Shown here piece by piece: positions 19,319 to 21,568 of a stretch of 47,935 bases of DNA (its first letter is position 1; each line of letters opens with the position of its first letter). A program made the translations under genes and the position numbers. The notes under the pieces were generated by a model. That model saw only the letters and a program-made list of their open reading frames with translations, was not told the origin of the DNA and ran no database searches. The stretch is from an uncultured Eubacteriales bacterium (lineage in GTDB: Bacteria; Bacillota; Clostridia; Oscillospirales; Acutalibacteraceae): positions 1 to 47,935 of the forward strand of contig CATJNB010000123.1 in NCBI GenBank assembly GCA_949741605.1. Reading direction: 5' to 3'.

Positions 19319-19846
19319 TCAGCGGTTTTTCACCTGTACCTGTAATCCCTGCATCACGTCTAAGGCTTTTTCATGCAGGGTGTTGTCCGGCCCTGCTACG
19401 CATCGGGCATCGATGATCACTGGGGTTTCGGGCAGTGCAGTTTTGACGATCACCACATTGGAAAGCACGCAGAGATAGGAAACTACCCCCGCAAGCTCCA
19501 CCGACGCATACTGCCTGTTTCGCAGGTAATCAAAGAGTCCCGCCGCCCCAAAACACGGCTTTTCCAGACAAACGTCCCCAGGGGCACAAAGGCTGGCAGC
19601 CGCCCCCGCCAATTGCCATCCCCAGCTGTCCCGGATGGTATGCATGATGGGCAGGTTTTTGCCTTCCTGCGTGTCGGGATAGGTTGCATCGTGCGTGTCA
19701 AGCGTAAACAGGATTTCATCCCCGCGCGTACGGTATTCGCGGATTTTCTGTGCAAGAGCCGGTTCCAGCTGCTGCGCCTGTGGGAAACCAAGGCTCCCGG
19801 TTACAAAATCATTCTGGTAGTCGACCACAATCAACAGGTTTTTCAT
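19319..19846 (-). CDS. Nicotinamidase / isochorismatase-family cysteine hydrolase
   Basis: LLIVVDYQNDFVTGSLGF; TLDTHDATYPDTQEG; EKPCFGA; GVVSYLCVLSN catalytic Cys. Confidence 0.85.
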   Translation of the reverse strand: MKNLLIVVDYQNDFVTGSLGFPQAQQLEPALAQKIREYRTRGDEILFTLDTHDATYPDTQEGKNLPIMHTIRDSWGWQLAGAAASLCAPGDVCLEKPCFGAAGLFDYLRNRQYASVELAGVVSYLCVLSNVVIVKTALPETPVIIDARCVAGPDNTLHEKALDVMQGLQVQVKNR

Positions 19847-19849
19847 GGC

Positions 19850-20590
19850 TTATTCCTGTCCCCGCAGGCTCTCAAAACATTCCTGCGCTTTTTGCTTGCA
19901 GCGTCCGCAGACTGTTGCCGCCCCGGTTGCCTCTTGCAGCTGCTGGAAGGTTTCTGCGCCCTCCCGGATTGCGTTTGCGATGTCCCCGGCTGTGAGCTTG
20001 CGGCAATGGCAGATTTTGGTATCCGGATCTATGGCTGGTTTTTGCGCCTGCGATTGTTCCAGCATGGCTGCTTTTAAAACCCCCAGTTGTGTTTTGGCGT
20101 CCGTGATTTCGTTTTTGAGTACCATCTCGACCGCCCGGTCCAAGGGGATTTTTTCCACCTGCAAAAATTCGTCGTCATCGGGGTTTGCCTGTTCCATACG
20201 GTCCACCTTGCAGGCATATAAATATAAAATTTCATCGCAGAACCCCGGGCTGGGATACATTTTCCCTAAATCCTGATATTCGGTTCCAATGGCGCCGGTT
20301 TCCTCCTGAAGCTCGCGCTGTACCGCCTCAAACGGGTCCTCTCCGGGTTCCAGCTTGCCTGCGGGAAGCTCCAGCAGCACTTCGCCGTACGGGTAGCGGA
20401 ACTGCCGCACAAAGAGTAATTCCTTGTCTTTTGTGAGCGCCGCTACGGTTACGCCGCCGGGATGCTCCACCACTTCCCGCAATACGACTTTCTCATTGGG
20501 GAGCAGCGCTTCGTCCACGCGGACTTTCACGATGCGCCCTTCAAATTTGAGGCTCTGCGATACCGTTTTTTCCCATAGGTTTTCTTGCAT
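19850..20590 (-). CDS. NUDIX hydrolase (ADP-ribose pyrophosphatase-like) fused to C-terminal BFD-like [2Fe-2S] domain
   Basis: Complete Nudix box GKLEPGEDPFEAVQRELQEETG; C-term ICHCRKLTAGDIANAIREGAETFQQLQEATGAATVCGRC = CxC-x31-CxxC; ATG at 20590. Confidence 0.9.
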   Translation of the reverse strand: MQENLWEKTVSQSLKFEGRIVKVRVDEALLPNEKVVLREVVEHPGGVTVAALTKDKELLFVRQFRYPYGEVLLELPAGKLEPGEDPFEAVQRELQEETGAIGTEYQDLGKMYPSPGFCDEILYLYACKVDRMEQANPDDDEFLQVEKIPLDRAVEMVLKNEITDAKTQLGVLKAAMLEQSQAQKPAIDPDTKICHCRKLTAGDIANAIREGAETFQQLQEATGAATVCGRCKQKAQECFESLRGQE

Positions 20591-20656: not shown

Positions 20657-20674
20657 GCGAAAGGTGTGATTTTT

Positions 20675-21568
20675 ATGCTCGCATGGACGCACGAACCCAT
20701 GGATTACAGCCAAGTCGCCACACGTGTGGAAACATTAAACAACCGCTTCCCCGGCCTGCAAACAGGCTCTTTGGGCAGGAGCCTGCTGGGAAAGGAACTC
20801 TTTACCCTGTATTTCCCGGCCCATGCTGTCCCTGATCCCCATGCCCCCCTGCTCCTTTTGACCGCAGCCTTCCATGGGATGGAATGGATCACGTCTACCT
20901 TATTGTTAGCCTTTGCGGAAAACCTATGCGTGCGTTTGGAACAGGGTTCCATCACGCTGAAATGCCCGGTTTTGATGGTCCCCTGCGTCAATCCCGACGG
21001 CGTTGGCATCCAGATCCATGGCCCCAAGGCTGCTGGACGTTTTTCCCATCTGATCTACCATGCCTGTGGTGGCGATACCCGCCGCTGGCAGGCCAATGCC
21101 CGCGGGGTGGATCTCAACCACAATTTCGACGCCCATTGGAAAACCCTGCGCCGGATGGAACAGAAGGCAGGCATCCATGGCCCTGCGGCCACGCAGTTTG
21201 GCGGCTGTTTTCCGCACAGTGAGCCTGAAACCCGCCACCTCGTCCATTTCTGCCGCACCCATCCGGTGGGGATGGCCGCTGCTTTCCACAGTCAGGGGGA
21301 GGAAATCTACTACCAGTTTGGCGACTGCCTGCCCCCGCGTTCCATGGAGATTGCCAAACGCTTGGCCGATGCTTCCGGCTATACCCTCGCTGACCCCGAT
21401 GGGCTTGCTTCCTTTGGCGGGTTTAAAGATTGGTTCCTTCAGGAATTTCAGCGTCCCGCCTTTACGATTGAGGTGGGGAAAGGGAAAAACCCTTTGCCGG
21501 TTGACGATTTTCCAGGGATTTACCAGCGGATAGAACCGCTTTGTTATGCCCTGTTAGACGCCTGTTGA
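20675..21568 (+). CDS. M14-family zinc carboxypeptidase (gamma-D-glutamyl-L-diamino acid endopeptidase I-like)
   Basis: LLLTAAFHGMEW (HxxE), NPDGV, ARGVDLNHNFDAHW, FTIEVGKGKNPLP. Confidence 0.85.
   Translation: MLAWTHEPMDYSQVATRVETLNNRFPGLQTGSLGRSLLGKELFTLYFPAHAVPDPHAPLLLLTAAFHGMEWITSTLLLAFAENLCVRLEQGSITLKCPVLMVPCVNPDGVGIQIHGPKAAGRFSHLIYHACGGDTRRWQANARGVDLNHNFDAHWKTLRRMEQKAGIHGPAATQFGGCFPHSEPETRHLVHFCRTHPVGMAAAFHSQGEEIYYQFGDCLPPRSMEIAKRLADASGYTLADPDGLASFGGFKDWFLQEFQRPAFTIEVGKGKNPLPVDDFPGIYQRIEPLCYALLDAC

Follow-up and report, generated by a model that had tools for sequence, protein, structure and literature searches.

In a 47,935-nucleotide stretch of contig CATJNB010000123.1 from an uncultured Eubacteriales bacterium, a gut-type species of the Clostridia (the window), we identified a gene whose product joins a Nudix hydrolase of the ADP-ribose pyrophosphatase type to a C-terminal [2Fe-2S] domain of the bacterioferritin-associated ferredoxin (BFD) type. 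The protein carries both domains with conserved catalytic and cluster residues, its gene lies in an operon-like order, and its two parts have separate counterparts in related species. The explanation that we prefer, with a probability of roughly 0.6, is a recent fusion of operon partners at the species level, in which both ancestral activities are kept on a flexible tether. It is favored over redox gating of the enzyme, a neutral merger and an assembly artefact.

The preliminary description of the locus, made from the DNA letters, had reported NUDIX and BFD domains within one reading frame, an exact Nudix box and a CxC-x31-CxxC motif, and had expected matches to both domain profiles; these points were all borne out. 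Pfam NUDIX (PF00293) matched residues 45-156 with an E-value of 2e-19, well over the gathering cut-off, and Fer2_BFD (PF04324) matched residues 193-239 with E-values of 4e-13 to 3.7e-12 and a score of 46.8 bits compared to a gathering cut-off of 26. The Nudix box starting at residue 78 follows the pattern Gx5Ex7REUxEExGU exactly, and all four BFD cysteines are present (residues 194-231). The fusion protein is the only Fer2_BFD match in the genome of the window species. The features of the locus are listed in Table 1. A plus-strand open frame of 234 aa (19373-20077) lies opposite the BFD part and the next gene; most likely it only mirrors the coding sequences on the minus strand.

Table 1. Features of the NUDIX-BFD locus, in positions of the window.
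Feature	Position	Strand	Details and basis
NUDIX-BFD fusion gene	19850..20590	-	246 aa; from the ATG (20590) to the end of the stop codon (19850)
Nudix ADP-ribose pyrophosphatase-like part	20052..20590	-	aa 1 to about 179; Pfam NUDIX, PDB, Foldseek, ortholog lengths
Nudix box GKLEPGEDPFEAVQRELQEETG	20294..20359	-	aa 78-99; motif match and ortholog alignment
Junction/linker with A5 run	20033..20051	-	DNA comparison with G001 and G003, frameshift test, low pLDDT
BFD-like [2Fe-2S] part, starting at ATA	19850..20032	-	Fer2_BFD; CxC-x31-CxxC; alignment
Isochorismatase-fold gene, probable nicotinamidase	19319..19846	-	Pfam Isochorismatase 3e-18; 3 bp downstream of fusion gene
M14 carboxypeptidase-like gene, divergent	20666..21568	+	beside nudix in G000-G004

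The best match of the fusion protein in a PDB sequence search was the ADP-ribose pyrophosphatase (ADPRase) ACT of Bacillus methanolicus (8zr8/8wv3, 2e-36), followed by NudF and other ADPRases. With Foldseek, the AF2 model of the fusion protein also matched ADPRase structures, with a TM_t of 0.82-0.90 and 36-39% identity for the B. methanolicus enzyme (8zr8, 8wv3, 9jax). This enzyme belongs to the same Nudix subfamily and has an intact Nudix box. It differs in having no C-terminal BFD, and its ADPRase activity has been measured, whereas that of the fusion protein is predicted. The catalytic residues were invariant across 21 aligned Nudix orthologs, and no unusual residues were found at the Nudix box or the other invariant positions of this alignment. 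By sequence and fold, the Nudix half is a member of the ADP-ribose pyrophosphatase subfamily with Mg2+-dependent hydrolysis of ADP-ribose to AMP and ribose-5-phosphate as its presumed reaction, in agreement with the initial assignment; its score against TIGR00052 was 41 bits, short of the cut-off of 79.6. A matching Nudix enzyme was found in 336 of the 398 genomes of the family, and at the family loci examined the orthologs usually comprised 177-189 aa and had no Fe-S domain. The Nudix half is thus a near-universal housekeeping enzyme of this bacterial family that other species possess without a BFD. ORFs of more than 250 aa in some relatives (L007, L024) were considered as cases of extra C-terminal domains and rejected; these frames are extended upstream instead.

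With respect to the spread of the architecture, which the preliminary description had named as a point to check, searches with the whole protein gave no second NUDIX-BFD frame among the matches listed for 6 genomes of the genus, 398 of the family, 394 of the order and 399 of the phylum (about the best 150 matches of each genome search). The listed matches in 80 contig loci and the five listed from the plasmid collection contained no second fusion either. With listings of this length a distant case can escape, and the plasmid search also counted one site that spans 80% or more of the query. A BFD profile built from the species G000, G001 and G003 gave E-values of 1e-34 to 1e-35 only in these three, the next value in the 398 family genomes being 6e-18, and no other nudix-BFD frame was recognised among those hits of the profile that were opened. 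The hits included frames of about 480-580 aa, probably FAD oxidoreductases judging from their length and a few loci, and frames of about 207-214 aa, among them ferredoxin-type proteins; both groups were set aside. In the literature searched, no description of a Nudix-BFD fusion was found.

The history of the fusion was traced in a sample of six species of the genus (G000-G005). The M14 gene stands beside nudix in G000-G004, and the locus is therefore orthologous in these species. In G001 and G003, a stand-alone BFD gene that starts with an ATG (59 and 60 codons, respectively) lies downstream of nudix and precedes the isochorismatase-fold gene. G002 and G004 retain the divergent M14 neighbor and have no BFD or isochorismatase gene beside nudix, and both genes are also absent from this position in G005. 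The nearest relative of the window species is G001, as its NrdD is 91% identical compared to 80% in G002 and G004. DNA comparison revealed that the ATG of the G001 BFD gene aligns with the ATA in the window, that the nudix-BFD spacer of 60-150 bp in G001 and G003 is replaced by the short junction, and that the spacing to the next gene after BFD is shortened to 3 bp. The gene order in G001 and G003, the change from ATG to ATA and the loss of the spacer make it most likely that the parts were operon neighbors before they became a single protein. At least G000, G001 and G003 would descend from an ancestor that carried an ADP-ribose pyrophosphatase, a BFD-type [2Fe-2S] protein and a nicotinamidase in this order, and the window species would have lost the spacer, with it the stop codon of nudix and the start codon of BFD, resulting in one protein. 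Gene trees of the genus were not strong enough to place the gain of the BFD gene in time or to settle in which order gains and losses occurred. As far as tested, the fusion is young and confined to one species. With the two proteins still separate in the sister species G001, the pair represents a clean natural experiment in which the fused and the separate state can be compared. Several points count against the preferred explanation: the fusion is present on one MAG contig only, the adjacency of nudix and BFD is restricted to three species of one genus, and with a single known case of the fusion, selection on the fused state is not measurable.

If the sequence or its assembly contained an artefact here, the actual genome would carry nudix and BFD as distinct or nearly distinct genes. 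The assembly is MAG-like with 220 contigs, and if the A5 run of the linker were one A shorter, nudix would stop at 186 aa, which is a normal length. In that case, however, the BFD would be left without an in-frame ATG, GTG or TTG, the only candidate being ATA, though its coding sequence is intact. Moreover, the in-frame loss of a 60-150 bp spacer is atypical of assembly errors. We consider an artefact very improbable, and slippage at the A5 run, which is short for such an event, was kept as a minor caveat only.

The isochorismatase-fold gene downstream of the fusion gene has invariant residues D9, K96 and C126 as well as D50, H52 and H69 in an alignment. With roles as in PncA, we take these to be the catalytic triad and the metal site of a nicotinamidase, respectively. 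Relatives of this gene in the family adjoin nicotinate phosphoribosyltransferase (L190, L193, L194) and make up an NAD-salvage pair with it. The gene product is a probable nicotinamidase according to context and residues rather than family membership, with 14.8 bits against NCBIfam PRK11609 (cut-off 174). Cleavage of NAD+ yields nicotinamide and ADP-ribose. Because the third gene keeps the nicotinamidase residues and its relatives adjoin nicotinate phosphoribosyltransferase, the unit looks like an NAD-breakdown operon that would clear both products and into which a [2Fe-2S] protein has been inserted. The Nudix half would hydrolyse ADP-ribose like its stand-alone orthologs, and the nicotinamidase, presumably co-transcribed with the fusion gene, would remove the other cleavage product. 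Such an operon would tie ADP-ribose and nicotinamide to an Fe-S protein, which makes a connection between redox state and NAD turnover directly testable. In other work, ADP-ribose was found to inhibit NAD-dependent methanol dehydrogenases with a submicromolar Ki, and the ADPRase ACT relieved this inhibition (PMC12926040). As the genome of the window species contains three Fe-ADH matches, clearance of ADP-ribose could likewise matter in a fermenter.

The C-terminal half matched the bacterioferritin-associated ferredoxins 6e6r and 4e6k in the PDB sequence search (3e-7 to 2e-6). It shares with Bfd the Fer2_BFD domain, the four-cysteine pattern and a similar length, but Bfd is a free protein of about 60 aa serving bacterioferritin, whereas the BFD half is fused to a Nudix enzyme and scored 15.6 bits against the NCBIfam Bfd equivalog PRK10509 (cut-off 75). 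In an alignment of eight BFDs, C8, C10, C42 and C45 (numbering of the BFD part) were among only five invariant positions. The divergence of the BFD by codon position (25/13/35 of 57), which includes the time before the fusion, is compatible with constraint. The clear PF00210 ferritin of the genome resembles the non-heme type (94.6 bits compared to an equivalog cut-off of 178), so no standard bacterioferritin partner stands out. The BFD protein may serve as an electron carrier or a ROS-sensitive element. BFD-type [2Fe-2S] modules also occur on the larger proteins NirB, GlpA and NifU, which act in redox reactions or in Fe-S assembly, whereas the reaction of a Nudix hydrolase involves no redox step. 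Elsewhere in the family, stand-alone BFD genes are located directly downstream of genes for a Fur-family regulator and rubrerythrin (L161 in G165 and L170 in G119), a neighborhood that represents a peroxide/iron-stress setting. By eye, the arrangement at L172 (G250) resembles these two loci. Within the window, a rubrerythrin gene occupies positions 12-584, at its left end.

In the AF2 model, both domains are folded, with pLDDT values mostly above 90 for the Nudix part and of 75-89 for the BFD part, while residues 181-200 in the linker reach 63-67. The model gave no evidence of contact between the domains. This and the occurrence of most family enzymes without a BFD are the reasons why tethering is preferred. 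The halves would be held at fixed stoichiometry by a flexible tether some 15-20 residues long, the BFD half would bind a [2Fe-2S] cluster and keep its role as electron carrier (and ROS-sensitive element), and strong allosteric coupling between the halves would be lacking.

The preliminary description had further suggested that turnover of NAD+/ADP-ribose is gated by redox state, oxygen or iron. The link to NAD and ADP-ribose was strengthened by the nicotinamidase-like gene, but gating itself is so far unsupported, because the family enzyme occurs without BFD, the BFD of the congeners is a separate protein, and the linker is of low confidence. According to this proposal, oxidation or loss of the cluster upon iron shortage, O2 or peroxide would switch ADP-ribose hydrolysis on or off, in a regulatory variant of the "biological fuse" that has been put forward for Bfd. 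A fusion could couple the two domains, and the iron-sulfur part may control the Nudix enzyme. The neighborhood of other family BFDs fits such a role, and ROS destroy the cluster of Bfd, which then loses its function (PMC12363616). The missing domain contact, the weak linker, the many enzymes without BFD and the ordinary residues at the Nudix box and the other invariant positions argue against gating, and we rate it as unlikely, albeit ahead of the other alternatives. The more far-reaching view that the fused cluster senses redox state or iron and switches ADP-ribose hydrolysis accordingly, thereby tying ADP-ribose clearance and NAD salvage to oxidative or iron stress, appears doubtful, less so than an artefact. 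If true, it would describe an Fe-S-regulated Nudix enzyme whose substrate is a dehydrogenase inhibitor.

A neutral or near-neutral fusion, in which a small deletion in the spacer joined two co-transcribed genes without new function and perhaps only transiently, seems to us less probable than gating and somewhat easier to accept than the sensor. It would be in line with the single species and the lack of a second case among the matches listed. Moreover, the same Nudix type is joined to a Maf-like domain in an unrelated termite-gut Oscillospiraceae MAG (WRED01000052), so C-terminal joining arises by chance. As this Nudix-Maf protein shows that such joining recurs, we lowered the weight of a single NUDIX-BFD fusion as functional evidence. 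On the other hand, the cluster cysteines and the reading frame were all kept and the spacing to the next gene was shortened, which speaks against a merger without consequence. Even if neutral, the fusion would be a good example of merging operon neighbors. In the Nudix-Maf case (L054:4605-5777 on WRED01000052.1), Nudix reads in frame into Maf within an ORF of 391 aa (NUDIX 9e-13, Maf 7e-65); it thus shares with the window protein a C-terminal partner domain, which there is not of the Fe-S type.
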